A program made the position numbers and the translations under genes. Below, piece after piece: positions 6,378 through 25,066 of a stretch of DNA of 64,000 nt. The notes beneath the pieces were generated by a model that was given only the letters and a program-made list of their open reading frames with translations, was not told where the DNA came from and ran no database searches. The DNA comes from Thermincola carboxydiphila (GTDB lineage Bacteria > Bacillota > Thermincolia > Thermincolales > UBA2595), in contig JAENYP010000001.1 of NCBI GenBank assembly GCA_016841725.1, forward strand, positions 62,001 to 126,000. Reading direction: 5' to 3'. Position 1 is the first letter of the stretch. Each line of letters starts with the position of its first letter.

Positions 6378-7283
6378 CTAACGTACCATTGCCACCAATT
6401 TCTGAAGCCTTTGACCAGGTTTCAGCAAATCCCCATAAAGATCCCCAGCCTGCCTGATTCTGTCCCTGATATTGCCGCTGTTAAAGTCACCGGGACGTAC
6501 TTTACCCTGCCTGACCTCTTCCCAGGTCAGCGGCGTTGATACCGGCGCTCCCGGAACCGGGCGCAGGCTGTATTGAAAAGTCATGGTTTTACCCCGGGTA
6601 TTCTGCAGGTAATCCAGGTAAACCTTGCCCCCCCGGTCGGCCACCAGTCTTTCCATGGTAGTCTTCCGGGGAAAAACAGCATGGACCTGACGGCAGATAA
6701 ACTCCACGGCATCCCTAACCTCACTGTAGGTATATTCAGGCTTGATGGGAACAAAGACATGCAGTCCCGTAGCGCCTGAGGTCTTGGGATATCCATGAAG
6801 GCCAAACTGGTCCAGAGCCTCTTTTACCAAGAGGGCAACCTCAAGTGTATCAGCAAAACCCGCCGGAGGCATAGGGTCAAGGTCAAAAACCATAATATCG
6901 GGGTAGTTTATCTCAGGCACCTTTGCCAGCCAAATATGAAGTTCAATACAGGCTTGATTGGCAAGCCATAAGAGCGTATTCAGGTCATTACAAATAATAT
7001 AGTTTATCGTTTTCCCTGTATCAGGCGACTTTACAGGAAATGTCCTGACCCATTCCGGCGCATACCCGGGACAGTCCTTCTGATAGAACATCTCTCCATG
7101 AATCCCATCAGGATACCGGCTCATAATAAACAGCCTGTCCTTCAGGTGTGGCAGCAGGATGTCTGCAATATCAGCATAGTACTTGATAAGTCCCGCCTTA
7201 TTTATTTTATCACCGGGCCACATCAGTTTTTCCAGGTTTGTCAGTTTAAGACTTTTCCCGGCAACGATTACCTCTCTGTCCAA
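6378..7283 (-). CDS. LigD-type polymerase/primase domain protein (NHEJ)
   Basis: Stand-alone archaeo-eukaryotic primase-type polymerase as in the PolDom of LigD, 301 residues. It fills in and extends ends during Ku-dependent double-strand break repair. The metal-binding acidic pair is in MVFDLDPMPP, and the nucleotide-site motif is in SGATGLHVFVPI. The start follows a ligase gene by only 5 bases, and the order ku - ligase - polymerase implies one operon. In mycobacteria and pseudomonads these domains are fused in LigD; here ligase and polymerase are separate and no phosphoesterase domain is present. Confidence 0.9.
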   Translation of the reverse strand: MDREVIVAGKSLKLTNLEKLMWPGDKINKAGLIKYYADIADILLPHLKDRLFIMSRYPDGIHGEMFYQKDCPGYAPEWVRTFPVKSPDTGKTINYIICNDLNTLLWLANQACIELHIWLAKVPEINYPDIMVFDLDPMPPAGFADTLEVALLVKEALDQFGLHGYPKTSGATGLHVFVPIKPEYTYSEVRDAVEFICRQVHAVFPRKTTMERLVADRGGKVYLDYLQNTRGKTMTFQYSLRPVPGAPVSTPLTWEEVRQGKVRPGDFNSGNIRDRIRQAGDLYGDLLKPGQRLQKLVAMVR

Positions 7284-7288
7284 CTAAA

Positions 7289-8230
7289 TCACCTTTCCAA
7301 GCGGCATTTTTCCGGTGGAATTTCTACAAACGCCTGAATACTCGGCTGTCTTAGCGTGTGACCCCCAGTCCATTCTATAAACTTTACTTTAACGGTGATG
7401 GCAGGCTGCAGCCAAATGGCAGTTTTTATACGCTCCGGTTTGTTTACAAAGTGACGCTCCTTTACCACTAAAGGTTTAATGCGTTCAGTCAATGCCCTCC
7501 ATTCAGCCATGGTCAATTTCCCTGTTCCGGCGTGCCCAATATACCAAAGCCGGCCTTCCCGGTCATAAAGTCCCAATAGCACTGCATTTACAAGATCACC
7601 TCGAAAAGTCACTCCACCAACTACAGCAACCAAGTCATGATAATTTTTAAGCTTTTGCCACCTGCGGTCTTTACCTTTTATACCATATGTACTTGTTAAG
7701 TCCTTACATACGATTCCCTCCAAGTCCTGTGCTGAAACTACTTGGTAAAGAGATTGCGGGTCATGAAAATTTTCAACTAACTGAACATCATCGGAAGGTG
7801 TTATCATATCATGCAGTATCTCCTGCCTTTGTTCCAGTGGCAAACCGGTAATCCACTTCCCGTTATAAAACAAAATATCAAAAACCATATATGTTACAGG
7901 TGTTTCTCTCATCGCTCGCGGAACTTTATCCGGTTGTCTAACGCCATCCCGCTTCATTACATTATGAAAAGACGGTTTTCCTTTTTCCAAAGCAATTACC
8001 TCACCATCCAACACAATTGATGCTGCGGAACAATATCGTTTTATATCAACTAACTCCGGAAACTGAAGGGTTCGGTCATTTAGTTTCCTGTTAAATAAGC
8101 CCACAATGTCCCCATCAAAATACGTTAAAATGCGCACTCCGTCCCATTTAACCTGGGCTGTCCACTGATCTCCAACCGGTATTTTATCGGTCTTGATAGG
8201 TTCAAACGGGATTACCGGTTTCAGCTCCAC
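7289..8230 (-). CDS. ATP-dependent DNA ligase, LigD ligase-domain type
   Basis: ATP-dependent DNA ligase of 313 residues sealing ends in non-homologous end joining. The adenylated lysine is Lys28 in VKWDGVRI (motif KxDG). Motif III-like VLDGEVIAL and motif IV-like DLEGIVCK follow, and a C-terminal OB fold contains GLYDREGRLWYIGHAGTG. The length equals an isolated ligase domain. Its start overlaps the 3' end of ku by 10 bases, and the polymerase gene follows 5 bases after its stop, so translation is likely coupled. Confidence 0.92.
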   Translation of the reverse strand: MELKPVIPFEPIKTDKIPVGDQWTAQVKWDGVRILTYFDGDIVGLFNRKLNDRTLQFPELVDIKRYCSAASIVLDGEVIALEKGKPSFHNVMKRDGVRQPDKVPRAMRETPVTYMVFDILFYNGKWITGLPLEQRQEILHDMITPSDDVQLVENFHDPQSLYQVVSAQDLEGIVCKDLTSTYGIKGKDRRWQKLKNYHDLVAVVGGVTFRGDLVNAVLLGLYDREGRLWYIGHAGTGKLTMAEWRALTERIKPLVVKERHFVNKPERIKTAIWLQPAITVKVKFIEWTGGHTLRQPSIQAFVEIPPEKCRLER

Positions 8231-9108
8231 GTTCCGGCCTTCTTCCGGCCTTTGCCAGACCCGGTTCCGGCCTTTCTGCCGGCCTTTGCCCCTGCTTTGG
8301 CTCCCTTTTTCATCCGAGCCCGTTCCTTTTCTTCCTTAGCCAGGTCGATACTCGCCTTAAGAGCCTCCATAAGGTCAACTACCTTGCCGGTCTCCGCTCT
8401 CGGGGCAACCTCTACCTCTTTACCGGTAATCCTGGACTCGATGAGTTCACTTAACGCGGCCCTGTATTCATTATGGTATTTTTCCAGGCTGAATGGCTCC
8501 GTCAGACTTGCAATCAGATTTGATGCCATTTTAGCCTCATTTTCGCTTACCTTCACACTGTAATTAATTTCCGGCAGCAGCTCGGTATTCCGAATTTCAT
8601 CAGGATAAAACATCGTCTCCATAACAATAATATCCCGGTATACCCTGAGGGCTGCCAGAGATTCCTTAGACCTGATAATTACTTTTGCTATAGCTACTTT
8701 TCCGGTTTCCGCCATCGATTTTTTGAGTAATTCATATGCCTTCTGCCCACCGTCTCCCGGAGCAAGATAATATGATTTATCAAAAAGCACCGGATCTATT
8801 TCACTCAGGTCGGCAAAGTTTATAATTTCAACTGTTTTTGCTGTAGCCAAGGGAATACTCTCAAAATCTTCATCGCTGAGAATAACATATTTACCCTTCT
8901 CATATTCATATCCCCTGACAATTTCATTCATAGGCACTTCTGTTTCACACGTTGGACAGATCTTTTCATACCGTACCGGTGTCTTGCATTTCTCATGAAG
9001 GTAATTAAATTTAATGTCCTTTCGCTCAGTCGCCGCGTACAATTTTACAGGTACATGCACCAGGCCGAAACTGATTGCTCCCTTCCAAAGGTTTCTCACC
9101 AAACCCAC
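8221..9108 (-). CDS. ku: Ku homodimer protein (NHEJ)
   Basis: Prokaryotic Ku, 295 residues, binds DNA ends and recruits the ligase and polymerase encoded downstream. The N terminus LWKGAISFGLVHVPVKLY is characteristic, and two CxxC-like pairs (CKTPVRYEKICPTC) lie near residues 40-60. The C-terminal 35 residues are a lysine/glycine-rich tail of the kind that binds DNA in longer bacterial Ku proteins. GTG at 9108 gives the full frame; GTG at 9099 is an equally plausible start. In spore formers this system commonly protects spores; no regulator is visible here. Confidence 0.95.
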   Translation of the reverse strand: MGLVRNLWKGAISFGLVHVPVKLYAATERKDIKFNYLHEKCKTPVRYEKICPTCETEVPMNEIVRGYEYEKGKYVILSDEDFESIPLATAKTVEIINFADLSEIDPVLFDKSYYLAPGDGGQKAYELLKKSMAETGKVAIAKVIIRSKESLAALRVYRDIIVMETMFYPDEIRNTELLPEINYSVKVSENEAKMASNLIASLTEPFSLEKYHNEYRAALSELIESRITGKEVEVAPRAETGKVVDLMEALKASIDLAKEEKERARMKKGAKAGAKAGRKAGTGSGKGRKKAGTWS

Positions 9109-10542: not shown

Positions 10543-11793
10543 TTAGTCTTTCAAAGCAGCGCCGATGCCCATTGACCTGGCCACCAACTCTGCCATATGA
10601 ATAACTTTAATGTTAGATTCAGCTTTTGCGGCCCCACCTGACAGTCCGGAAAAGCAGGTCGGGCACGGAGTTGTCAGATATTCGGCTCCGGTTTCCTCAG
10701 CATCCCTGATGCGGCGGACCGATGCCTCTTCCTGTAAATCGTGGTTAGCAATCTTCAGACCTCCACCTACCCCACAGCACCTTGAGAACTGCCTGGTTCT
10801 TTCCATCTCAACCAGCTCGATTCCCGGAATTGCCTGCACCACCCGGCGTGGGGCTTCGTAAATATTGTTGTGCCGTCCCAGCAGGCAGGGGTCATGGTAA
10901 GTAATCCTCCCCTGAACAGGCACATTTAATTTGATCTGTCCCTGCCGAATCAGAATGTCAAGGTACTCGGAAAGATGATAAATCTGATACTTTTGCTGTC
11001 CCACCTTGGGATAATCACTGTTGAGGGTTTTAAAACACCCGGCACATGCAGAAACCAGTGTGTCAATTCCCAGGCTGTTCAATTTTTCTATGTTTTGTCC
11101 GGCCAGCTGCTTAAAGGTAGGATCCCCCATCCGGCGCAGTTTGCCATAACAACAGTTTTCTTCGCTTCCCAAAACCCCGAATTTAACTCCGGCTTCGCTA
11201 AGGATGTTTACTGTATGTTTGGCAATCCTGCTTACTTTTTCATCAAAGGTTGCCGTACACCCAATAAACAACAGAACCGAAGCCTTGTTTTCCTTAATCA
11301 GTTCAGGCCTGTACAGCAGTGTTCCATCCTGAAGGCCGTCTTCTATCCAATCAGTCCTGGCTGACTGCTCCTTTTTATATGGATTCCCGAATTTGACAAG
11401 GTTTTCGCAGAAAGTCCTTTGTTCAGGGATTGGTCCCAATCCTGATCTGAACATAGCCTCCCGGACATCTTCCCAGAGTTCGACGGTATCAATTCTTGAC
11501 GGACAGACGAAATGGCACTGGTTGCAGCAGGAACACTCATACAGGCCGGTCAAAAAGTCCGCCAAAGTATCCTGTCGAATCTCAGATTTGAATAATCCCA
11601 GTAATCCGTTCTGGGCTTTTAAGATGGACTTAAAATTCTTTATTTTGGCCCTTGGGGTAACTTTTTCGTTTTTCGTAAGACTATATACCGGACACCAATT
11701 CTGACACTCTCCACATCTGGTGCAGGCATCCAGGCACATAAGCCGGCGGGGACTTAATTTATCCAAAGGTATTTTACTATTACTCTTTTTCAT
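10543..11793 (-). CDS. HdrD/DsrK-like (Fe-S) oxidoreductase with two CCG domains
   Basis: Cytoplasmic iron-sulfur protein of 416 residues. Two ferredoxin-type cluster motifs come first (CTRCGECQNWCPVYS and CSCCNQCHFVCPSRI). Two cysteine-rich CCG domains follow (LLFIGCTATF...ENCCYGK and YHDPCLLGR...FSRCCGVGGG...TPCPTC), as in HdrD and DsrK subunits that handle disulfides or thiols at a non-cubane cluster. Its start overlaps the preceding NarI-like membrane gene by 4 bases (ATGA), implying a membrane-bound pair exchanging electrons between quinone and a thiol/disulfide or soluble carrier. The substrate is unknown. Confidence 0.88.
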   Translation of the reverse strand: MKKSNSKIPLDKLSPRRLMCLDACTRCGECQNWCPVYSLTKNEKVTPRAKIKNFKSILKAQNGLLGLFKSEIRQDTLADFLTGLYECSCCNQCHFVCPSRIDTVELWEDVREAMFRSGLGPIPEQRTFCENLVKFGNPYKKEQSARTDWIEDGLQDGTLLYRPELIKENKASVLLFIGCTATFDEKVSRIAKHTVNILSEAGVKFGVLGSEENCCYGKLRRMGDPTFKQLAGQNIEKLNSLGIDTLVSACAGCFKTLNSDYPKVGQQKYQIYHLSEYLDILIRQGQIKLNVPVQGRITYHDPCLLGRHNNIYEAPRRVVQAIPGIELVEMERTRQFSRCCGVGGGLKIANHDLQEEASVRRIRDAEETGAEYLTTPCPTCFSGLSGGAAKAESNIKVIHMAELVARSMGIGAALKD

Positions 11794-12575
11794 ATATACA
11801 GATCACCCCTTACCCGTTCTTCTGAAGCGTTAAACAGAATCTCTGCGGGACTACTGATAATATGCATAAACTTACTATGGGGAAAATAGGCCAGCATAAC
11901 GGCCGTAAGAAAGGCATGCAGGGTCCAGATCACAGAAGCAGCATTTCTGCCCGACTCGCCCTGTAATAAAGAGAGTTCCGCCAACCGGTATCCGATAAAA
12001 GAATAATGCAGCCCCGGGACAGACCCGGAGAGCGAAATCCTTAGAGCTTCCAGCAGAAATCCGGTAATAACTAATAATAGCAGGAAAACTAAGGTCGTTG
12101 TGTCATAAGAGTCTGTATTCAGTTGTTCAGCCCGGAAAATAAACCTTCTCAGAAAGGCAGCAGTCAATCCCGCTAACAGCATTAATCCGAAGAGATCTCC
12201 AGCCAGCTTATAATAGTTGTGGCCCTGACCCTGAAGCATATATTGAGTGATCCGGGAACTTTCCGGGATAATGGTCTCTAAAGCCACAGCTATTGCCGAT
12301 AATGAAATCAACCCGATAAAACCCCAAAAAATCAACATATGAACAGACCAGCGCAAAAGGCTTCTTTGGGCTATATGTTTCTGAAACAATACTTCCCGGA
12401 AAAAGGCGGCAGACATTGCTTTGTAGTCTGGCTGTTTGTACAGTAGTCTGCCTTTCCCACTGAAATAAAAGGAAAATTTCGTAACCATGCCTACTATAAA
12501 AAGTAGTAGACCAAATGACTGAATTATCCAGAATATTGTCCAGGGTTTGTAGTAAAGCACTACACCTGAATCCAT
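11790..12575 (-). CDS. NarI/DsrM-like membrane b-type cytochrome
   Basis: Integral membrane protein of 261 residues resembling the gamma subunit of respiratory nitrate reductase and DsrM/HdrE. About five transmembrane helices are seen (near residues 12-32, 75-97, 122-142, 163-183, 212-230), with histidines placed for haem b (HMLIFWGFIG, TLHAFLTAVML). It would anchor the HdrD-like protein encoded immediately downstream (4-base overlap) and exchange electrons with the quinone pool. The gene follows the UGA-containing membrane-protein gene by 44 bases, so the three form one likely operon. Confidence 0.85.
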   Translation of the reverse strand: MDSGVVLYYKPWTIFWIIQSFGLLLFIVGMVTKFSFYFSGKGRLLYKQPDYKAMSAAFFREVLFQKHIAQRSLLRWSVHMLIFWGFIGLISLSAIAVALETIIPESSRITQYMLQGQGHNYYKLAGDLFGLMLLAGLTAAFLRRFIFRAEQLNTDSYDTTTLVFLLLLVITGFLLEALRISLSGSVPGLHYSFIGYRLAELSLLQGESGRNAASVIWTLHAFLTAVMLAYFPHSKFMHIISSPAEILFNASEERVRGDLYI

Positions 12576-12619: not shown

Positions 12620-13744
12620 TTACTTAACTTTATGGGCCTGATAAAACTTGCCAAAAACGACAGCATACATAATTGATGCAAATATTACGCTGATATAGTT
12701 TGCGGCAGAAAGTACTGCACTGGGAAAATAGTTTGCATACACATAAACCCCCAAAACTTGGGAGCCAACAAAAGCTCAGACCATAGCCCACTGGGTTGCG
12801 GAAAATTCACTTCTATAGAAATATTCTTTAAAGTAGCTGCTGAGTAAATAAATACTGAAAACACCCCAGCCAATTGAAGTGACATAAGAGAAGTTGATTA
12901 AAAAGAATGAGATAATCTCTGTATCAATATTAAAATGTATCTGTAAATACTCTGTTAGTCTCAGGAGACTTATTCCAAACAGGCAGGTAATGGGAATCAT
13001 AATAAAATAGCTGGGCAGTACGGGGCTTTGCGGCAAACTGACAGATTTCAACTGCAGGTAAACCAAATAACTAAGCTTAGTTACCAGTAAAAACAAACCC
13101 ACACTCAAAGCCAGCAGTGACGCGAAAGCAGCTATAGATGAAAGCTCTCTGCCGGCTGCCATGGAGGCTATTCCGGTACCGGTCAGATTAACCAAACCAA
13201 AGGCGAAAACATCAAGCAGCCATACAAAATTTAATTTAGCTCCATCAAGAGGCTGGGTTAACCAGTTCTTCAGAAACTTGAATTCAAGCATAAAAAGAAT
13301 AAACCAGAGACAACCAAAGAAAATGAATCCTGGCAGCATCAAAGACTGCAGATTTGACGATATTTCAGGGATAAAAAAAGCCAGTGGAGCCAAGACAACA
13401 TTTGCAATCATAGACATGGAGGCAATGGGAACAAAAATACCGATACTCATTGTCGGCGGCCCATTCATAAAAGCGTTATATTCCTCCCTGTTAAAAAGCC
13501 ATACTAAAAGGCTTTTTAAAAGAACAACTGTGGAGATTAAGCTGATAGCCGTAAAAATTAACATGATTCCGGTTAAAAAAAGGTACATTAAATTTTGAAC
13601 CGTACTTAATCCTGCCCATGGCATATCTGACAATTTGATTAATCCTTCTCCATGAGGCACGGCAAACTGCAGATAATTAAAGGCCATTAGTGAGATACCT
13701 CCTGCAGCCAGAGGCACCTGGAATTTGAATGGTGTAAACTTCAT
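12620..13744 (-). CDS. Polytopic membrane protein, probable selenoprotein (Sec323)
   Basis: The frame runs 322 codons to an in-frame TGA (12778-12776), then stays open for 51 more codons to TAA 12620. The continuation (VYVYANYFPSAVLSAANYIS and onwards) is hydrophobic, like a further membrane helix, so the reading frame looks coding on both sides of the TGA. Immediately 3' is a hairpin CTCCCAA-GTT-TTGGGGG whose apical loop lies about 19-21 bases after the UGA, within bacterial SECIS spacing. SelD in this window shows the cell uses selenocysteine. I therefore call a 374-residue selenoprotein with about ten membrane segments. I recall a family annotated as TsoY (seleno)protein with this architecture but cannot verify it. 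The gene is followed by a NarI-like and an HdrD-like gene, suggesting membrane redox chemistry. The alternative is a nonsense mutation. Confidence 0.75.
12736..12778 (-). promoter_or_regulatory. Candidate bacterial SECIS element after UGA of membrane protein
   Basis: In the mRNA the UGA is followed by a seven-pair stem (CTCCCAA pairing with TTGGGGG, including one G-U) closed by a GTT loop. The loop begins at the nineteenth base after the UGA and starts with G-U, as in SelB-recognised bSECIS loops. Pairing was judged by eye, not computed. Confidence 0.6.
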
Positions 13745-13888: not shown

Positions 13889-15262
13889 CTATCTTTCCCT
13901 ACGCTCCATATTGATATATTCCCGTCTTTTTAAAACACTTTTATAGGCCGGTCTGATGATTTTTCCCTCATTTACAATTTCTTCAATGCGATGGGCGCTC
14001 CAGCCGCTTATTCGGGAAACGGCGAATATTGGAGCAAATAATTCAAGGGGTATATCCAACATCCTGTATGCAAATCCTGAATAAAAATCCACATTTGCAC
14101 TGACTCCCTTGTACATTTTGCGAACCCTGGCAATTACTTCAGGTGCCAGCTTCTCTACCTTTGCATAAAGCCTGAATTCATCTTCAAGGCCCTTTTCCTC
14201 AGCAAGCTGAGCAGCACAACGCTTTAGAATAACTGCCCTGGGGTCAGATATTGAGTAAACAGCATGTCCTATGCCATAGATCAAACCTTTGCGGTCAAAT
14301 GCTTCATTGTTGAGTAGTTTTGATAAATGATTTTTTATTTCTTCGTCATCTTCCCAATCCGTCAATTCCTGTTTCATATCGTCAAACATTTGAATGACCT
14401 TTAGGTTTACCCCCCCATGCCTTGGCCCTTTGAGTGACCCCAATGCGGCAGCTATCACAGAATAAGTATCTGTTCCCGTTGATGTGGCCACATGAGTTAT
14501 GAAAGAAGAGTTATTACCTCCCCCGTGCTCGGCATAAAGAACTAAGGCAAGATCCAGCACTTTTGCCTCCAGGTCTGTGTATTTATTGTCCGGCCTCAGC
14601 ATATAAAGAATGTTTTCTGCAATGCTTAGCTCCGGCTTCGGTTTAACCACATAAAGGCTGCTCTTGCCGTGATAATGTGATAAGGCCTGATAACCATACA
14701 CCGTCAGTGACGGAAAGCGTGCTATAAGCTGCAAACACTGCCTTAATACATTTTGAACAGACGTGTCATCAGCTTTTTCATCAAAGCTGTATAAAGCCAA
14801 TACACTTCTGGATAACATGTTCATAATATCCTTGCTCGGCACCTGTAAAATCATATCCCGGGTAAAATCTCCCGGCAGCCCCCGGTACTCAGCAATAAGC
14901 CGCCTGAAATCCAGAAGTTCTTGTTCAGCAGGCAAATTCCCAAATATTAACAAATAGCAGACTTCCTCGAAACCGTAACGCCCTTCAGAAAGAAACCCGG
15001 TTACAATTTCATTTAGATCAATCCCTCTGTACAACAGCATACCAGGCGCCGGGACTATTTTGTTATCTTCCGTATCATAGGCCTGCACTTCACCAATTTC
15101 CGTCAAGCCTACAAGCACACCCCTCCCATTAAGATCGCGAAGTCCTCGTTTCACTTCATATTTAACATATAAATCAGGATCTATAAAGCTGCTTTTTACT
15201 GCCTTTTCGGAAAGTGTTGTCAGCATGGCTTTTTCAAAATTACCCGTAATTATTTCACTCAT
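13889..15262 (-). CDS. Citrate synthase (Si-type family)
   Basis: Condenses oxaloacetate and acetyl-CoA. The 457-residue protein carries the citrate synthase blocks LYAEHGGGNNSSFITHVATS, LGSLKGPRHGGVN, GIGHAVYSISDPRA and FYSGFAYRMLDIP, including the catalytic histidines. It could also act as a 2-methylcitrate synthase, which sequence alone does not exclude. It is separated from upstream lpd by an intrinsic terminator and from the downstream membrane protein by 144 bases holding a LysR-type site, so it may be monocistronic. Confidence 0.9.
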   Translation of the reverse strand: MSEIITGNFEKAMLTTLSEKAVKSSFIDPDLYVKYEVKRGLRDLNGRGVLVGLTEIGEVQAYDTEDNKIVPAPGMLLYRGIDLNEIVTGFLSEGRYGFEEVCYLLIFGNLPAEQELLDFRRLIAEYRGLPGDFTRDMILQVPSKDIMNMLSRSVLALYSFDEKADDTSVQNVLRQCLQLIARFPSLTVYGYQALSHYHGKSSLYVVKPKPELSIAENILYMLRPDNKYTDLEAKVLDLALVLYAEHGGGNNSSFITHVATSTGTDTYSVIAAALGSLKGPRHGGVNLKVIQMFDDMKQELTDWEDDEEIKNHLSKLLNNEAFDRKGLIYGIGHAVYSISDPRAVILKRCAAQLAEEKGLEDEFRLYAKVEKLAPEVIARVRKMYKGVSANVDFYSGFAYRMLDIPLELFAPIFAVSRISGWSAHRIEEIVNEGKIIRPAYKSVLKRREYINMERRER

Positions 15263-15359: not shown

Positions 15360-16739
15360 TTAAATATGAATACTCAGTCCATGTACAGCCTCTGCCGCTT
15401 CCATTACTGCTTCCGCCAAGGTAGGATGGGCATGGATTGTACCGGCAAGCTGTTCTGCAGTTGCCCCCAGTTTCATGGCCAGTGCCGCTTCAGCTATCAA
15501 ATCTGCCGCATGTGGTCCGACAATAGTGGCCCCAAGTATTTTATCAGTTACCGGGTCTGCAATGATTTTTACAAATCCTTCTGCCTGTCCTGCTGCCAGG
15601 GCCCTGCCGGTGGCCATAAAGGGGAATTTTCCGGTTTTTACGGCAATGCCCTGTTCTGCAGCCAATTGGCCGGTTATCCCAACTGAGGACACTTCCGGAT
15701 AAGTAAAAATACAGTTTGGCACCACAGTGTAGTCCATTTCAATTTCCTTACCCATGATATGTTCCACTGCAGCAATACCCTGGGCTGAGGCTACGTGCGC
15801 CAGCTGTATCTTATTGGTTACATCACCGATGGCATAGATATTCCCGATACCGGTCTGCATCCTGGAATTGACCGGTATTTCGCCCTTGGGGCCGGTCTCT
15901 ACCCCAACTGTATCCAAACCTATCCCTTCAGTATTAAAAGCCCGTCCAACTGAAACCAGCATTTTGTCAGCCTTGATTTCCTCACCGGTCTCCAGGGTCA
16001 CCGTAACACCGCCCGGACCTTTAATTACTTTTTGGATTCCGGTTCCGGTCTTTAGATTGATTCCTTGTTTTTTAAACAGGGTCTGCATTAATCTGGCCGC
16101 TTCCTGATCCAGTGTGCCCAGTATTGAAGGCATTATTTCCACAATGGTAACTTCAGTGCCAAGTTCGGCAAAAATACAGGCAAATTCACACCCAATAACT
16201 CCTCCGCCGATTATTGCCAGGCTCTTTGGTTTTTCTGTCAGGTTAAGGATTTCATCACTGGTTAATACGGTTGTCCCGTCATAGCCCCAGGAAGGATTGA
16301 CAGCCGGTCGTGAGCCGGTGGCTATAATTATGTTCTCAGCCTTTACCTCTTCACTGCTGCCATCCTCTTTAGCAATATGGACAGTGTTTGGGGACAATAG
16401 TTTCCCGGTGCCTTTTACTATCCCAATCCGGTTCTTTTTAAACAGGTAGCTGATACCGGCAGCCAGTCTCTGCACCACCTGATTCTTGCGCCCCATAAAA
16501 AGCGAAAAATCTACCACCGGATTATCGGCGCTAATTCCGAATTCCGGCCCCTTTCTGAGCGCCCGGAGTATTTCCGTCCCGGAAACCAGCGCCTTGGTAG
16601 GTATACAGCCTCTGTTGAGACAGGTTCCTCCCAGCCGGTCTTTTTCCACCACCAAAACCTTTGCCCCCAGCTGTGCAGCCCTGATGGCCGCCACATAACC
16701 TCCCGGGCCTCCACCTAAGATGACTGTTTTATATGCCAA
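15360..16739 (-). CDS. lpdA: Dihydrolipoyl dehydrogenase (E3/L-protein)
   Basis: FAD/NAD disulfide oxidoreductase of 459 residues that reoxidises dihydrolipoyl groups. The FAD motif is GGGPGGYVAA, the redox disulfide is in GGTCLNRGCIPTK, the NAD motif is GGGVIGCEFA, and the C-terminal dimer histidine motif is HAHPTLAEAVMEA. It is the last gene of an operon containing a GcvH-like carrier and lipoate assembly genes, so its partner is probably the lipoylated carrier encoded upstream. No E1/E2 or glycine decarboxylase genes are in the window. Confidence 0.93.
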   Translation of the reverse strand: MAYKTVILGGGPGGYVAAIRAAQLGAKVLVVEKDRLGGTCLNRGCIPTKALVSGTEILRALRKGPEFGISADNPVVDFSLFMGRKNQVVQRLAAGISYLFKKNRIGIVKGTGKLLSPNTVHIAKEDGSSEEVKAENIIIATGSRPAVNPSWGYDGTTVLTSDEILNLTEKPKSLAIIGGGVIGCEFACIFAELGTEVTIVEIMPSILGTLDQEAARLMQTLFKKQGINLKTGTGIQKVIKGPGGVTVTLETGEEIKADKMLVSVGRAFNTEGIGLDTVGVETGPKGEIPVNSRMQTGIGNIYAIGDVTNKIQLAHVASAQGIAAVEHIMGKEIEMDYTVVPNCIFTYPEVSSVGITGQLAAEQGIAVKTGKFPFMATGRALAAGQAEGFVKIIADPVTDKILGATIVGPHAADLIAEAALAMKLGATAEQLAGTIHAHPTLAEAVMEAAEAVHGLSIHI

Positions 16740-16787: not shown

Positions 16788-17600
16788 CTACCTTTTCCTG
16801 TTCCAGGCCTCTGTGCCGTACTTTGACCGGGATAAATCAAAGGCCTCAGCCATTTCAGCGCCTGATAACTGCTGTGGCGTTAAACTTATCCCCCACCCGG
16901 CTGCAAACGATTTGGTCAAGGCGCCGGCGACTTCCTGAAATTCCGGAGCATATCCCAAAACCTCGTTCAGTGAAGCAGCCTTGTCATCAAAAATACGCTT
17001 TCCATTTTCCCTGGCCTGTTCAGAGGGATACTGCAAACAGGAAAACAGTAAATCAGTTTCTTTTTCTATTAATACTGAACCGTGCTGGAGAATACAGTTA
17101 TTTCTCCTGGTCTGGGCGCTGCCAACAATCTTTTTGCCAAAAACAGTGACTTCATACCGGGATGGTGAGTCAAAACAGGCCGCCGTACCGGCGCCCGGCC
17201 TTTTTTCGCCGCCGGATATTTCGGCCGGTATGCCCAGCTCTTTTAAACCGCCTGTAATACCACGACTGACCGCCAGATAAGTCTCCAGCAAAGTCCCTCT
17301 GAGAATCCGGTTATTCTCCGGCGCAATTACACTGTAAGTCAGTTCCCGGTGATGCAGGATGGCCCTGCCGCCGGTTAAACGCCTGATAACATCCACACCC
17401 TGTTCCCCGGCGCTGACGGCATCAATTTCCTTATGATAGCTCTGGAAATAACCCAGAGTAATTGCCGGCTGCGACCATTGATAGAACCTGACCGTGGGTG
17501 GAGCAGTCCCCCTGGCGGCAGCCAGAAGTATTGCTTCATCAACCGCCATATTAACAGCCCCCGATTCAGACATACTGATAATCAGCCGCCACTCCTCCAT
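16788..17600 (-). CDS. Lipoate-protein ligase A / octanoyltransferase family
   Basis: LplA/LipM-like protein of 270 residues. The motif RRLTGGRAILHHRELTYSV and the lysine in KKIVGSAQTRRNNCILQHGS are the substrate-binding landmarks of the family. It loads lipoate or octanoate on lipoyl domains. Placement next to two radical SAM genes, a GcvH-like carrier and lpd matches the more recently described lipoate assembly sets in which an Lpl-type enzyme works with the radical SAM pair LipS1/LipS2 instead of classical LipA. Whether it uses lipoate or octanoate cannot be told here. Confidence 0.85.
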   Translation of the reverse strand: MEEWRLIISMSESGAVNMAVDEAILLAAARGTAPPTVRFYQWSQPAITLGYFQSYHKEIDAVSAGEQGVDVIRRLTGGRAILHHRELTYSVIAPENNRILRGTLLETYLAVSRGITGGLKELGIPAEISGGEKRPGAGTAACFDSPSRYEVTVFGKKIVGSAQTRRNNCILQHGSVLIEKETDLLFSCLQYPSEQARENGKRIFDDKAASLNEVLGYAPEFQEVAGALTKSFAAGWGISLTPQQLSGAEMAEAFDLSRSKYGTEAWNRKR

Positions 17601-17605
17601 CAGCT

Positions 17606-18586
17606 CTAACTCTCCTCTTCCAGGTTATCCAGTATAGAATTAACAGCCTCGCTAATTTCATCAGGGGTAAGCTCCCGAGGGTAGTTATACATCACACCGC
17701 CTGGTTTTTCGTTATAATAAGGCCGGTTACAGTCAGGACAACCTGAGGTCTTAAAGGCAGTTCCTCCACTAAGATGTTCCTTCAAGGCAGCTCTGGTCAA
17801 TCCATAACTTGTCAGATTACCGGAGTCAAATTTACACTGGGATGCAGTTATCAGCTTTCCTTCCATAAGATAGCGGGCCGCCTGGATCCTCCTGTAGCTA
17901 TCGACCCTTGGGGGCGTAACCCCGGCCATCGGGGTCCCTGGAACAGGAGTAAAGGCAAAGAGTCCTGAAGTAATTCCCCGGTCCTGCATTTGCTGTAATA
18001 TATTTATCATTTCTTCTTCCGTTTCTCCCAGCCCCACAATCAGGTGTGTGGAAATTCTCCCGGGATACAGATCGGCTGCAGTATAAAGCATATCGAGGTT
18101 CGCGTTCCAGCTGCCCCCTTTGGTGTTTCGGTAAACATAGGAGCCGGCGGCATCCAGGGCAATGGTAATCCGGTCAACTCCTGATTGGACAATAAATTTT
18201 AATTCATCAGTATTTTTAATCCTTACAGAAACACAAATGGGAACATCTGAAAACCTTTTTATGGTGCAGACTGTGTCTCTTATTTCTGACAGAGGCTGCC
18301 CGTCACTGACCACCTGCAGGCATACCCTTTTAATCCTTCCGGCAGCATAAGCATAGGCAGTTTTTTGCGCCACATCCTCAAGTCCGGCCTCATGCCAGGT
18401 AATTCTGGACAGGAACCGCGGCCGGGACAACGCGTTTTGGGCTTGGGGGCAAAACCCGCAATTATAAATGCACCTATCACCAGTCATCAAATAAGCGGTT
18501 GTGGGCAGCACATCAGCTGCGATTTTCCGGTAGCCAAACAAATGCGCGGTACCTGCTGAGACCCTGATGATCATAGTACACAACAT
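17606..18586 (-). CDS. Radical SAM protein, LipS1/LipS2-type lipoate synthase component (second gene)
   Basis: Radical SAM enzyme of about 326 residues with the cluster motif CIYNCGFC (C-x3-C-x2-C) near residue 40 and a C-terminal cysteine pair (TSGCPDCNRPYYNEKPGG), probably for an auxiliary Fe-S cluster serving as sulfur donor. The start is ATG 18586 or ATG 18574; both overlap the end of the upstream radical SAM gene, the second through an ATGA junction. With the lplA-like gene six bases downstream and a GcvH carrier upstream, I infer a LipS-type enzyme inserting sulfur into octanoyl groups. I cannot tell LipS1 from LipS2. Confidence 0.72.
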   Translation of the reverse strand: MLCTMIIRVSAGTAHLFGYRKIAADVLPTTAYLMTGDRCIYNCGFCPQAQNALSRPRFLSRITWHEAGLEDVAQKTAYAYAAGRIKRVCLQVVSDGQPLSEIRDTVCTIKRFSDVPICVSVRIKNTDELKFIVQSGVDRITIALDAAGSYVYRNTKGGSWNANLDMLYTAADLYPGRISTHLIVGLGETEEEMINILQQMQDRGITSGLFAFTPVPGTPMAGVTPPRVDSYRRIQAARYLMEGKLITASQCKFDSGNLTSYGLTRAALKEHLSGGTAFKTSGCPDCNRPYYNEKPGGVMYNYPRELTPDEISEAVNSILDNLEEES

Positions 18587-19428
18587 TCCTCTCCCAGCTT
18601 AATATCAAGTCCGAGATCTGCCGCTATTTCTGCTGTCCCGGGGGCAGGCTGGACAATCCGGTTGATTCCGCAGCGCAGGGCAAGCTGGTCCACTTCCTGC
18701 CTGTGTCGCCCTCCGGGTCTCATACACCCTAAATGCAAAGGAACTTTTGGCAAATCTATTCTGGCTTTGCACAGGACTCTGGCCACATCGTCAGGTGCCG
18801 GAATCTGCCGGTTAGAGAAAAGGGTGTCTCTGGTAGGACGAAATACCAGAAACACCAGCCCATCAACCCCTATTTCCCGCAGCAGGTCAATAGCCCTGAA
18901 TTCACCACTGAGCCGGCCGCCCCTAAGACCGATACAGATATGGGGGATGACCCGGACCCGCTTTTTTAGTTCCCGGTATGTATTGATATATTCCCCAATA
19001 TCTTTCTGCAAACCATAGACTTCTCTCACTGTTTCACTGTCTCCCACAAAATCAAAAGAGATGGTATCAGCAAGTTTACTGATTTGTTCGATTTCATCTG
19101 TGCCAATCAGTCCGGTGTGCAGGTTGATCCTCAGCCCGGCCTTTTTAATATCCTCCAATATGTGAAGGCAGTCTAAAACAGGGACCCGGCCGTTTGGGTC
19201 ACAACCTCCGGATACCAGGACACTTTTAATTCCAGGTTTTATTTTTTTCTGCCATAACTCTGCCGGAATCATGTTCCTCAGGTAGCGGCCGCTGCAGTGG
19301 GCACAGTTCAGCTGGCAGCGGCTCCCGGTAACGCTGATGGCCATTGTTTTTTGCGGTGTGCAAATTACCACTTCATCAGAAAAGTGTTTGCGTCTTACCT
19401 GATAGGCCTGGGTAATTAGCTGTGCCAA
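18571..19428 (-). CDS. Radical SAM protein, LipS1/LipS2-type lipoate synthase component (first gene)
   Basis: Radical SAM enzyme of 285 residues with CQLNCAHC (C-x3-C-x2-C) around residues 39-46, a glycine-rich SAM-binding segment (VLVSGGCDPNGRVPV), and extra cysteines at the extreme C terminus (GEECCVL) and in HLGCMRPGG. It begins 17 bases after the GcvH-like gene and overlaps the next radical SAM gene. The pair of non-identical radical SAM proteins next to a lipoate ligase is the signature of LipS1/LipS2 lipoate synthesis. Function is inferred from context and motif, not direct similarity. Confidence 0.72.
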   Translation of the reverse strand: MAQLITQAYQVRRKHFSDEVVICTPQKTMAISVTGSRCQLNCAHCSGRYLRNMIPAELWQKKIKPGIKSVLVSGGCDPNGRVPVLDCLHILEDIKKAGLRINLHTGLIGTDEIEQISKLADTISFDFVGDSETVREVYGLQKDIGEYINTYRELKKRVRVIPHICIGLRGGRLSGEFRAIDLLREIGVDGLVFLVFRPTRDTLFSNRQIPAPDDVARVLCKARIDLPKVPLHLGCMRPGGRHRQEVDQLALRCGINRIVQPAPGTAEIAADLGLDIKLGEECCVL

Positions 19429-19445: not shown

Positions 19446-19838
19446 TTACTGCTCCTCACCTTCGATCAATAGCCTCCCATATTCCTCCACAGTAAGCAAG
19501 CCATCAAGTTCTGCGATATCTGAAACTTCCAGGACAGCTATCCAGCCCCCGCCGTATGGTTCCTCATTTATCAGTTCAGGAGAGCTTTCCAACCCGGTAT
19601 TGACTTCTATTACCTTTCCACCTATAGGAGCAATGACTTCAGATACGGCTTTCACCGACTCAATCCTGGCCATAGGTTCACCGGAGGCACACTCATCTCC
19701 GATGGCGGAAAGTTCAATAAATACCACATCACCCATTAAGGATTGAGCAATATCAGTAATCCCAACCGTAACCTGGCTGCCGTTTATTCTGACCCACACG
19801 TGTTCTTTGGTATACTTTAAATCCTTTGGATTAATCAC
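19446..19838 (-). CDS. gcvH: GcvH-like lipoyl carrier protein
   Basis: Glycine-cleavage H-protein homologue, 130 residues, with the lipoyl-lysine in ARIESVKAVSEVIAP and the normal H-protein fold motifs (KYTKEHVWV, VGITDIAQSLMGDV). The start is GTG 19838, preceded by AGGAGG that overlaps the stop of the DsrE-like gene. There is no gcvT or gcvP nearby. The protein may therefore be the acceptor on which the downstream enzymes build lipoate, or a stand-alone lipoate-binding protein as in lipoate-dependent sulfur metabolism. The symbol refers to family, not proven glycine cleavage. Confidence 0.85.
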   Translation of the reverse strand: MINPKDLKYTKEHVWVRINGSQVTVGITDIAQSLMGDVVFIELSAIGDECASGEPMARIESVKAVSEVIAPIGGKVIEVNTGLESSPELINEEPYGGGWIAVLEVSDIAELDGLLTVEEYGRLLIEGEEQ

Positions 19839-19848
19839 GGAATACCTC

Positions 19849-20199
19849 CTAAAATGTCAAGACTTTGTCAGCCTCTTCCATCCAATGGGCCAATTCTATC
19901 ATGTTGCTTCTTTCAGTTCCCTCGACCATTTGTACTTCGCTCAGTCCCCGAGCGTCCATACAGGTCCCTCACAACTTGACTTTCCCGCCTTTAACCAGGA
20001 TTCCCTTAAGCATGCGCTCAATATTATAATAACCCTGTGGCGTATTCTGGCCTGTTACAGCATTGCCAACAGCATCAGCCATCAGAAAAACCCTGACATC
20101 GGCAGCAACCTCTTTTTGCATCACCATGGCCAGCCTGAGAGCATTATAGGCTTTTTCTGTTCCATAAGGGCCGTCATTGACTATAAATAGATACTTCAC
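19849..20199 (-). CDS. DsrE-like sulfur-relay protein, probable selenoprotein (Sec77-x-x-Cys80)
   Basis: Small DsrE/TusD-family protein. The frame meets TGA at 19971-19969 and continues open for 39 codons to TAG 19849. Decoded as Sec, the junction reads KLU-GTCMDARGL, where DsrE-family proteins normally have a CxxCxDARG motif, so the first cysteine is replaced by selenocysteine (U77, C80). The continuation is clearly coding (GLSEVQMVEG...AHWMEEADKVL). A stem CGCTCGG-GGA-CTGAGCG follows with its loop 22-24 bases after UGA. GTG 20199 is chosen because GGAGG lies six bases upstream; an ATG at 20223 precedes that ribosome site. Full length is 116 residues. It lies between selD and gcvH, with the gcvH ribosome site touching its stop, so it is co-transcribed with lipoate assembly genes. 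A sulfur or selenium carrier role is inferred. Confidence 0.85.
19938..19971 (-). promoter_or_regulatory. Candidate SECIS element in dsrE-like mRNA
   Basis: A seven-pair stem (CGCTCGG with CTGAGCG, one G-U pair) with a GGA loop begins about 15 bases after the UGA. The loop is at bases 22-24, within the range for SelB recognition. Judged by eye. Confidence 0.6.
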
Positions 20200-20249: not shown

Positions 20250-21293
20250 CTATGGCAAAAGTTCAATAATACCTGGGGGCCCGCCGGTGATTTCCCCAAC
20301 ACAGGCCGCTGTCTGGCATCCTTCTCTAATCAGCGACTCTTCCAGCTTCTCTGCCTTTTCCGGTGCCACTGCAATTAACAATCCACCCGAAGTCTGGGAA
20401 TCACATAAAACCGTCCGGATTTCAGGCAGTACTTTAGCTGACCTTACTTTATCCGCCAGGTAACGGTAATTATTATGAGTTCCGGCAGGTACAATGCCGG
20501 CACGGACCAGGTCCCAAACCTCATCAATGACCGGAACGGCTCCGGTATATATCCCGGCGCCCGTCCCACCTGCCGCTAACATTTCATACAGGTGGCCCAG
20601 GAAACCAAACCCGCTCACATCAGTACAGGCATTGACACCCACTTCCAACATAGCCCTGGCTGCACCACTATTCAGTTCCACCATCAGGTCATAGACCTTT
20701 ACTGTCAGCTCTGTACCGGCTAAATCGCGGTCGATGGCAGTTGTTATTATTCCTGACCCTAAAGGCTTGGTAAGGTACAGCTTATCACCGGGCCGCGCCC
20801 CTTTTTTAAATAACAGCTTTTCAGGATTTACGGTACCCGTAACAGCCATCCCATACTTAGGAGCATTGTCCTCCACCGAATGTCCCCCGGCAACGGTGAC
20901 TCCGGCTTTTGAAGCAATATCAGCCCCGCCGCGCAGGATCTCTTCAAGGATGCTGACAGCCAGGCTTTTTACGGGAAAACAGACGATGTTTAAAGCAAAA
21001 ACCGGTTCAGCCCCCATGGCATAAATATCACTTAAGGCATTTGCAGCTGCTACTGCTCCGAAGGAGTAAGGGTCGTTTAAAACCGGGGTTATAAAATCAA
21101 CGGTCTGGACCATTGCCAGTTCTTCACTGATTTTGAAAACCGCCGCATCATCAGCGCCCTCAGTATAAAAGCGTTTATCCTTAATTTTGGGAAGACATGT
21201 CAAAATTTGTTTAAGATCCGCCGGATCTATTTTGCAGGCTCAGCCGGAACCCGGCGAAAAACTGGTTAACCTGACAGTGGGTTTCTCATTCAA
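20250..21293 (-). CDS. selD: Selenide, water dikinase SelD, itself a selenoprotein (Sec18)
   Basis: Makes selenophosphate, the selenium donor for Sec-tRNA and other uses. A standard ORF call from 21203 loses the N terminus. The frame extends upstream through TGA 21242-21240 to TTG 21293, which has AGAGGG eight bases before it. Read through, the N terminus is LTSFSPGSGU-ACKIDPADL, the classic catalytic site with Sec at residue 18 in place of Cys. Total length is 347 residues, as normal for SelD. A perfect five-pair stem GATCC-GGC-GGATC lies 13-25 bases past the UGA. ATP/Mg motifs GADDAAVF and GGHSVEDNAPKYG are present. It is the first gene of a seven-gene operon running through the DsrE-like and lipoate genes to lpd, divergent from a LysR gene. 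Confidence 0.95.
21214..21242 (-). promoter_or_regulatory. Candidate SECIS element in selD mRNA
   Basis: Stem GATCC / GGATC (plus an outer A-U pair) with a GGC loop located 18-20 bases after the UGA codon of selD. Geometry is very close to the other two candidates in this window. Confidence 0.65.
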
Positions 21294-21414: not shown

Positions 21415-22299
21415 ATGGAATTATCCCAACTCAGGGCTTTTTATGAAATCGCCAGATCCGGCAGCTTCAGTAAAGGGGCCGAAAAACTTCATATTACACA
21501 GCCGGCCCTGTCACGCCAGATTGAATCCCTCGAAAAATCAGTTGGGATAAGCCTGTTCAACAGGCACAGCCGTGGGGTTTACCTTAGTGAAGCAGGCCGC
21601 AGATTATTTGAATATGTGGAACAGATGCTGAGGCTGGCCGATGAGGCTGACAGAACCCTTCAGGAATTACAGGGCCTTCATATCGGCAAGCTGAGCATCG
21701 GCGCCTGCACAACTATGGGGAGCTATTTACTGCCTACTCCACTGGCTACTTTTCTGAAAATGCATCCCAATATTGAGGCTTCCCTGGAGCTGGGCAGCAG
21801 TGATGAAATCGCCGCCAGGGCTGCCAACAGGGATTTTGATCTGGCCTTTATCGCAGGCATTACCGACCCGCCGGGGCTGTGTATCGAACCAATTCTCGAA
21901 GACCAGATTCTTTTTTTAGTTTACCCTGACCATCCTTTGTCTAAAACGACCGTCTTTCAGCCAGAACTGCTCGCTAAAGAGGTTTTTATCATGAGGGAAT
22001 TGGGTTCAGCCACCAGAAAGGCCCTGGAAACCATTCTGGAAAGTGTCCACATCAAACCGGGCAGGGTTGTCACCCTTGGTGATACTGAAGCTGTGAAAAG
22101 GGCCGTCATGGCCGGTATGGGGATTACTTTTCTGTCACGGTTCACCGTGGGGCTGGAACTGCAGACCGGCCTTTTATGTGCCCCCAGTTTTCCGGAGCTG
22201 CAAATGAGCCGGAAACTGCTCTGTATTTATCCCAAAGGAGTACACCTTTCCCCGGCATCCCTGGCCTTTTTGTCACATATAAAAAAAGAGAGCTATTAG
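21415..22299 (+). CDS. LysR-family transcriptional regulator
   Basis: LysR-type regulator of 294 residues. The N-terminal winged helix-turn-helix contains SFSKGAEKLHITQPALSRQI and the remainder is a periplasmic-binding-like effector domain. GGTGG lies seven bases before ATG 21415. It is transcribed divergently from the selD-dsrE-lipoate operon, so it is the likely regulator of that operon. A second copy of its presumed site upstream of the UGA-containing membrane protein points to a wider regulon. The effector is unknown; sulfur- or selenium-related metabolites are reasonable candidates. Confidence 0.9.
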   Translation: MELSQLRAFYEIARSGSFSKGAEKLHITQPALSRQIESLEKSVGISLFNRHSRGVYLSEAGRRLFEYVEQMLRLADEADRTLQELQGLHIGKLSIGACTTMGSYLLPTPLATFLKMHPNIEASLELGSSDEIAARAANRDFDLAFIAGITDPPGLCIEPILEDQILFLVYPDHPLSKTTVFQPELLAKEVFIMRELGSATRKALETILESVHIKPGRVVTLGDTEAVKRAVMAGMGITFLSRFTVGLELQTGLLCAPSFPELQMSRKLLCIYPKGVHLSPASLAFLSHIKKESY

Positions 22300-23192: not shown

Positions 23193-24866
23193 CTACCTAA
23201 ATTGATTCACCAGTTCCTGCATCCGTGCCGCCATCCGGGTCAACCCTTTTGCCGATGTAGAGATGTTATCGATAGAACCGGCAAGCTCCTCTGTTGATGC
23301 CGATACTTCTTGCACAGAGGCAGCATTTTCCTGGGAAATTGAAGCAACATTCCGGATGGTTCCATTGACCTGTTCACTGGAAGCAGATATCTGTTGGGTT
23401 GCCGCCGAGTTCTCCTCAGTTATGGCGGCAACATTGTTGACTGCATCGGAAACCTCGCGGCTGCCGTCCATTATCTCATTTATAGTGTCGGTAATTTTGC
23501 CGACATTTTCGGCTGCGGTAACAACCCCAGTTACAATTTCGCTTAAAGCCTGACCTGCTTCTTCAGCCAGTCCAACTCCTTCTGAAGCTTCCCTGGTCCC
23601 TATTTCCATTGAGTCCACCGCAGTCTTGGTCCTCTGCTGAATATCAGTTATCAGGTCAGCAATTTCCTTGGTAGCCTCTCCAGACCGCTCGGCCAGTTTC
23701 CGCACCTCATCTGCCACCACTGCAAAGCCCTTACCGTGTTCGCCGGCCCGGGCAGCTTCGATGGCGGCATTTAGCGCCAGAAGGTTTGTCTGTTCGGCAA
23801 TTTCGTCAATCACCTGGATAATTTCACCGATTTTTTGTGACCTTTCCCCCAGTTGGTTCAGGTTTTGTGAAGTCTCCAAGACGGCGGTCCTGACTCTGTT
23901 CATACCTTCCACTGTTTTGTTCACTGACGTCCCGCCATTTTGAGCCAGGTTTCCGTTCTGCTGCGAAACCTCCCTGACAATTTGCATGCCTGCAGCCATT
24001 CTGTCCATTTTGGCTGTCATTTCATTTACCATCTCAGTGGTTTTTAACACATTATCGCTCTGTTCCTGGGCCCCGGAAGCAATCTGCTCAATAGACAGGC
24101 CCACCTGTCCCATAACTGAGACAGCCTCATTGGTAATCTTAGCCTGCTCTGTTGACCCTTTAGCTACCTGATCAATGGCAGCGGCGATTTGCCGGAATGA
24201 GGCAGAGCTGGTTTCTGATATTCTTTCCAGCTCCGTGCTTGTCTCAGCCAGTTGTGACGCATTTTCCTGCAGCATTTTGATAAAATTCTGCCGTTCCGCA
24301 AAGAAAGAGTTTAAGTTTTCCGCCAGCATCCCGATTTCATCTTTCCGTTTTACTCTGAGGCAGATACGAGAACCCGTGTCACCGGAATTGGCCAGAATAA
24401 TGCCATTTAATATGGAACGGATAGCATTTGACATACCGGCACTGGGAATCCACCAATAAATTATACCAAAAACAACAAAACCGGCTGCCAGCATCCAATC
24501 CACACTATTCAGACGTGAAACCATTCCAAACGCAATAATGGTAGCATAAGCCCATATGGGGTGAAGGATGCCGGAAAACTTTTTCAGGATATTTACTTTA
24601 CTGCCAATAACAACATTAATTGCCAGACCTGCCAATGAAACAACCAGCATGACTGTGCTTAAAGAATTCCACTTATCCTGATACAATACCGCAGGCACCA
24701 GGAAGACCAGTAAAGAAGCATAAATTGCAGGAAATATGTATTTGAGGTTAAAACTTACCTGGGTGAATACGTGGCCCTCAAGGCCCAGGTTTTCTAAAAA
24801 GTTAAGTTTATAGGCTTGTTTTCCCAACCTTTTAACCCTCCCGTAATAGAAATTCCCATACCCCAT
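23193..24866 (-). CDS. Methyl-accepting chemotaxis protein under c-di-GMP riboswitch
   Basis: Chemoreceptor of 557 residues. The N terminus has four or five membrane segments (about residues 40-150) with almost no external loop, so it probably senses membrane state or an intracellular signal. A HAMP-like stretch ([15 protein letters not shown]) and a signalling domain with the hairpin tip [20 protein letters not shown] follow. ATG 24866 lacks a good ribosome site; TTG 24827, preceded by GGGAGGG, is an alternative start about 13 codons in. Upstream lies a c-di-GMP-I riboswitch with terminator, linking receptor synthesis to the motile/sessile second messenger. Confidence 0.9.
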
Positions 24867-24956: not shown

Positions 24957-25033
24957 TCCGGCAGCTTGGCAGTCATAGTAAAATCACCTTAGACCCATAG
25001 CTTTGTGCCCCCGCCTTTCAACGGGTTTACCCT
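24957..25033 (-). ncRNA. c-di-GMP-I (GEMM-I) riboswitch aptamer
   Basis: On the minus strand the sequence runs AAGGGTAAACC, a GAAA tetraloop region, GGGGGCACAAAGCTATGGG, TCTAAGG, and ends ATGACTGCCAAGCTGCCG. These are the conserved blocks of the GEMM-I family: the tetraloop/receptor, the CAAAGC core and the GCC...GCCG closing side. A consensus-like promoter directly precedes it and an intrinsic terminator directly follows, before the chemoreceptor gene. The CACAAAGC block differs from the commonest ACGCAAAGC, so ligand specificity (c-di-GMP versus cGAMP) should not be assumed. Confidence 0.82.
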
Positions 25034-25037
25034 TGTC

Positions 25038-25066
25038 ATATTATTGATTCATAATTTTACGGACAA
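25038..25066 (-). promoter_or_regulatory. Sigma-A-type promoter for riboswitch-MCP transcript
   Basis: TTGTCC, a 17-base spacer and TAATAT, placed so that transcription would start at about 25031, right at the aptamer's first strand. Confidence 0.65.

Follow-up and report, generated by a model that had tools for sequence, protein, structure and literature searches.

The window, by which we mean the whole stretch of 64,000 nucleotides from the anaerobic bacterium Thermincola carboxydiphila that was analysed, contains a short DsrE-family gene with a TGA codon in its predicted active site. The question raised by this locus is whether that codon ends the protein or is read as selenocysteine (Sec), and what such a protein, here called Sec-DsrE, would do in the cell. 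The features concerned are the following:

19849..20199, minus strand: predicted DsrE/YchN-family selenoprotein gene (GTG start at 20199, TAG stop at 19849, 116 codons, Sec at 77)
19971-19969, minus strand: in-frame TGA of Sec-DsrE, codon 77 (Sec), at the position held in homologues by the first Cys of the DsrE/YchN CxxC
19960..19962, minus strand: Cys80, second residue of the UxxC, invariant in alignment A1 (6 Sec and 27 Cys rows)
19938..19954, minus strand: apical stem-loop of a bacterial SECIS, 7 pairs, GG in the loop (fold, conservation and covariation)
19924..19966, minus strand: whole predicted hairpin with its lower stem, the lower part of which is not conserved in all relatives

A ribosome site of the GGAGG type lies just 5' of the GTG start, the translation around the TGA reads GGKVKL-U-GTC-MDARGLSE, and the protein belongs to the DsrE/DsrF-like family PF02635, which covers its whole length (90.6 bits, cut-off 22.7). 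An earlier note on this DNA had claimed that the frame runs through the TGA at the family's CxxC. This is the case, as codon 77 falls on the first Cys and the CxxC is present in all 78 relatives scored as Cys forms, including two loci retained among them that have TAA or TAG within the matched frame (L031 and L062). Among 80 relatives from public genomes, TGA stands at the Sec codon in five (L010, L017, L018, L033, and L084) and Cys in 75, and the TGA is kept among close Bacillota relatives. A match was obtained in 36 of the 398 genomes in a phylum-wide sample, and eight of the 398, including the window's genome, had a full-length close match with the TGA. The TGA was also seen in a damaged copy (G025) and in a partial match (G175) that was left out of the analyses. 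Surveys of the order and the class yielded an identical set of 10 genomes, which leaves the phylum sample as the only informative one. The Sec loci total 13, with the window included and a duplicate excluded; the duplicate is L092, whose contig of 84,546 bases is also that of L010, and which was nevertheless counted among the 14 Sec rows of the stem count below. The damaged copy (L130), which has a frameshifted middle, is in the stem and neighbour counts and was excluded from the tree and from a further stem-loop analysis.

When a tree was built from 53 rows, all 12 of its Sec rows fell into one group (support 99/94), with one label change. The tree sample consisted of these 12 rows and 41 Cys rows, E. 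coli YchN included, and was made from every second Cys locus plus L098-L101 with stop-bearing rows removed. Its Sec rows with named origins are all from Bacillota, and the others come from the sample of the window's phylum. Codon changes 3' of the TGA were mostly silent when the window was compared with L093 (9 synonymous and 5 other changes; p 0.0003, with 19% expected for random substitutions) or with L092 (5 synonymous, 3 not) and when L017 was compared with L033 (10 synonymous, 5 not). The pair L017 and L018 showed 3 synonymous changes and 10 that were not, contrary to the other three pairs. With synonymous bias in three of four pairs, the segment 3' of the TGA looks to be under selection at the protein level.

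A SECIS-like hairpin after the TGA had been proposed in the same note, with folding as a check on it. The 52 nt from the TGA folded with -19 kcal/mol (z -3.65), a value reached by 1 of 200 shuffles, and the stem pairs nucleotides 18-24 with 28-34, counted from the TGA. All seven pairs were found in 12 of the 14 Sec rows and six in the other two (11 and 2 of 13 without the duplicate), so that at least six pairs form in every Sec row, whereas among the 78 Cys homologues none has seven pairs and three have six. For 12 Sec sequences, 11 of them distinct, pairing is seen in 98.7% of 77 cells, with changes on both sides in 7 of the cells. Both arms of the stem have changed at two of its pairs (CG/UA/GC at one, CG/AU at the other); four of the seven are invariant and therefore add nothing to the covariation. 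The covariation score was matched by none of 500 shuffles, and slid controls were at most 40% paired. The hairpin is thus conserved and covarying.

These results bear directly on the possibility that the TGA is an ordinary stop, leaving a truncated 76-residue protein or a pseudogene. Standard gene finding does give an 84-aa ORF here, from an upstream ATG, but the TGA, the frame, and the SECIS are kept across the entire clade and the codons after the TGA show the bias just described, and we give this reading a negligible chance. A genetic code in which TGA is a residue was considered separately and is ruled out, because 5 of 27 checked window genes end at TGA as an ordinary stop.

The genome carries the machinery for Sec insertion, with a tRNA-Sec (71.7 bits), SelB (357.7 bits), and SelD. 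SelB (E 1e-60 or better) is present in 266 of the 398 phylum genomes, among them all ten with a Sec-DsrE TGA, and its excess among the eight genomes with a full-length Sec-DsrE is modest (p 0.04). Directly upstream of Sec-DsrE are the following:

20250..21293, minus strand: selD, selenophosphate synthetase, start read as TTG, 50 bp upstream of Sec-DsrE
21240..21242, minus strand: in-frame TGA of selD, codon 18, GSGUACK
21415..22299, plus strand: LysR regulator close to the LysR family of selenium metabolism (231.8 bits, below the cut-off of 250)

The selD gene therefore adjoins Sec-DsrE, as had been noticed before, and has an in-frame TGA of its own, in what we take to be the usual place for that codon. 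The evidence strongly supports Sec in the UxxC of this DsrE-family member, together with the SECIS and the link to selD. On the strength of these comparisons, the window's protein is almost certainly a true selenoprotein, with Sec77 in place of the first active-site Cys.

What would such a protein do? Its predicted structure (pLDDT 93.9) resembles YchN (1jx7, TM 0.92), TusD (2d1p_A, TM 0.87), and DsrE (2hy5_A, TM 0.87), and a profile search placed Sec77 on Cys78 of TusD (2d1p_A) and of A. vinosum DsrE (2hy5_A), with weak E values of 0.05 and 0.15. According to the portions of PMC3397948 consulted, Cys78 of DsrE binds sulfur and hands it to DsrC, and Cys78 of TusD is an essential residue. Because Sec77 is at the persulfide position of DsrE and TusD in a DsrE-type fold, a carrier role is likely by homology, and we favour the reading that Sec-DsrE carries sulfur or selenium, with a probability of roughly 0.55. 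Sec77 would take sulfane sulfur or selenium from a donor such as a NifS-type desulfurase, Cys80 would release the carried atom by forming a Se-S bond, and a cell reductant would reopen that bond.

It could also be that Sec-DsrE is a general thiol-disulfide or peroxide reductase that works through its UxxC and carries neither element. UxxC is a common redox motif that can be a plain thiol-disulfide centre, the part of PMC1088965 consulted lists DsrE-like proteins among redox selenoproteins, dihydrolipoyl dehydrogenase (Lpd) is the next gene after Sec-DsrE in two sibling genomes, and in L126 a gene close to Sec-DsrE resembles thioredoxin reductase. The fold, however, is that of DsrE and not thioredoxin-like, and Sec77 is at a known persulfide site, so we consider a general reductase improbable.

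The genes downstream of Sec-DsrE had suggested a more specific role. They are the following:

19446..19838, minus strand: GcvH, 10 bp downstream of Sec-DsrE, local neighbour only
18571..19428, minus strand: LipS1 lipoyl synthase, local neighbour only
17606..18586, minus strand: LipS2 lipoyl synthase, local neighbour only
16788..17600, minus strand: LplA-type lipoate-protein ligase, local neighbour only
15360..16739, minus strand: dihydrolipoyl dehydrogenase (Lpd), directly downstream of Sec-DsrE in two sibling genomes

The earlier note had described co-transcribed lipoate genes and had proposed that the protein may carry sulfur or selenium to the radical SAM/GcvH system. All five genes are indeed present; their co-transcription is deduced from spacing such as the 10 bp to GcvH. 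As a sulfur carrier, Sec-DsrE would in that case serve lipoate assembly on GcvH by LipS1 and LipS2. Apart from the tight spacing in the window, this idea draws on a sulfur-oxidising system elsewhere in which, in the portion of PMC11582611 consulted, DsrE3 and lipS genes occur together. The neighbourhood comparison does not agree with it. GcvH, LipS1, LipS2, and LplA were found near Sec-DsrE in none of the 12 other Sec loci, and the block of these four genes between DsrE and Lpd is seen in the window's genome only. LipS1 over the family cut-off is absent from four of the eight Sec-DsrE genomes (G006, G105, G191, and G212), and G006 is of the same genus as the window. In G005, also of this genus, the order is SelD, DsrE, Lpd, TsoY; both there and in G009 a GcvH-LipS1-LipS2-LplA-Lpd block is on another contig, with no DsrE match in the stretch examined. 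Sec-DsrE does not travel with the lipoate system, and because the block adjoins it only in the window's genome we reject the lipoate role, which we regard as very improbable. The lipoate genes have been added locally, which shows that a single gene neighbourhood can mislead.

Other neighbours recur between loci, above all TsoY, for which the window has the following features:

12620..13744, minus strand: TsoY-family membrane selenoprotein, SLAC1-like (NF047643, 478 bits before the TGA and 549 bits for the whole model with 1 TGA)
12776..12778, minus strand: in-frame TGA of TsoY, codon 323, WAMV-U-AFVGSQ
12746..12766, minus strand: SECIS-like hairpin 3' of the TsoY TGA, a stem being predicted there in all 14 folded TsoY sequences, window included

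Under the standard code the TsoY frame ends at 12776, and 51 further residues follow past the TGA. Ordinary gene finding cuts TsoY at this codon; it is the third selenoprotein gene in the stretch, with selD and Sec-DsrE. In the 12 other Sec loci, TsoY was a neighbour in eight, a NifS-type desulfurase in six, SelD in four, and LysR in four, and in the 78 Cys loci the corresponding counts were 0, 3, 1, and 2, in flanks of unequal length and with the Cys loci mostly from other phyla than the Sec loci, so that these differences are partly expected. Wherever TsoY is near Sec-DsrE, it has the TGA in WxMV-U-xFVGSQ. In both the window and G005 the locus has no NifS (best genome-wide match 47%), and none of TsoY, NifS, SelD, and LysR was found in the flanks examined of four of the 12 other Sec loci (L084, L123, L126, and L130). 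In L126, one of these four, the neighbours are a TusA-type protein, a fragment of a YedE-like transporter, and a selenium-type LysR that scores below the cut-off. Taken together, what surrounds these genes points to the trafficking of selenium and sulfur.

Several further observations were made around these genes. The SelD/NifS set of three genomes, G087, G117, and G284, contains a short DsrE that is distinct from Sec-DsrE and of the Cys type (CGTC; match of about 94 aa), and TsoY belongs to this set in G087 and G117. Such short DsrE genes are at L168 5703-5984, L169 7476-7195, and L171 6049-6330; they are weakly like the DsrE part of YedF and have SelD and NifS as neighbours, and TsoY as well in L168 and L169. 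In the window, HdrD/DsrK-like iron-sulfur and NarI/DsrM-like membrane proteins follow TsoY (10543-12575, minus strand), as in L010, L120, and L122, and it is possible that they are a membrane electron-transfer pair of the module. Citrate synthase (13889-15262, minus strand) lies between Lpd and TsoY, a position where L010 and L120 have no such gene. Elsewhere in the window, a c-di-GMP-I riboswitch (24957-25041, minus strand, 79.7 bits) lies ahead of a chemotaxis-receptor-like gene (23193-24866), and a bacterial end-joining set (6378-9108, minus strand) has Ku, DNA ligase, and a LigD-type polymerase as three separate genes.

The recurrence of SelD, NifS, and TsoY suggests a role of Sec-DsrE in handling selenium or reactive sulfur rather than in lipoate assembly. 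That it brings selenium to SelD is a tentative idea, with the odds against it. In a fuller and equally doubtful version, selenium would pass through it from a NifS-type enzyme to SelD, itself a Sec-containing protein, with TsoY as the membrane part, and the three selenoproteins would form a self-sustaining supply. To our knowledge, the way in which bacteria get reactive selenide to SelD without harm to the cell is not settled. A testable set of parts is offered by a small soluble selenoprotein that has Sec at the persulfide position of a carrier fold and that neighbours SelD, a membrane selenoprotein, and an enzyme of the NifS type.

Alternatively, Sec-DsrE may be a partner of TsoY, which would transport an anion of sulfur or selenium (sulfite, selenite, or a polysulfide, for example), with Sec-DsrE reducing or carrying it inside and SelD being near only because the genes need selenium. 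TsoY matches Pfam SLAC1, whose relatives include sulfite and tellurite transport proteins, and besides being the neighbour found in eight of the 12 loci it co-occurs with Sec-DsrE in six of the 398 genomes (eight have Sec-DsrE), a count that is uncorrected for kinship and in which the six fall in three families. Moreover, the gene sets of L017, L018, L033, and L125 have no SelD match and do have an ArsR-type regulator. Against this, no TsoY match was found in two of the eight full-length Sec-DsrE genomes (G191 and G212, the genomes of two of the four loci with none of these neighbours), and of the 12 genomes with TsoY over the cut-off Sec-DsrE is present in six and missing from the other six. 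We consider such a partnership possible but unlikely.

The preferred reading, Sec-DsrE as a carrier of sulfur or selenium, can be set beside several known systems. E. coli YchN (1jx7) is a full-length match (E 2.1e-27) with the CxxC at the same place and the same fold, but it has Cys where the window's protein has Sec, and ychN is beside chaC and ychO; our literature search found no paper on YchN together with DsrE. TusD and DsrE, of TusBCD and DsrEFH, share the fold and have their persulfide Cys78 at Sec77, whereas no TusB/TusC-type gene was recognised among the scanned neighbours of Sec-DsrE. The protein was also compared with the TusD/DsrE sulfurtransferase equivalog (TIGR03012), and its score of 35.8 bits is below the cut-off of 89.25. 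YedF has a DsrE domain with CGxC that is linked to SelD (PMC5322559, in the portion consulted), but Sec-DsrE lacks the TusA domain of YedF and has no match to TIGR03527, so it is not a member of that family. The TsoY neighbourhood (Haft and Tolstoy 2025, NF047643) is alike in that the window, like most Sec-DsrE loci, has a TsoY with the TGA; TsoY is also named, with credit to Haft and Tolstoy 2025, in the consulted part of a review (PMC13188914). DsrE-like selenoproteins with PF02635, UxxC, and a downstream SECIS have been on record since 2005 (Zhang and Gladyshev), one of them in Desulfovibrio vulgaris (PMC1088965, PMC1794560, in the parts consulted). The consulted parts of these two papers do not mention a TsoY/NifS/SelD neighbourhood for the family. 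The D. vulgaris member is WP_014524487.1. Sec-DsrE has both PF02635 and the UxxC and so agrees with this family, as compared with the published tables. DsrE-like UxxC selenoproteins are thus already known, and the window's protein adds a member in an informative neighbourhood.
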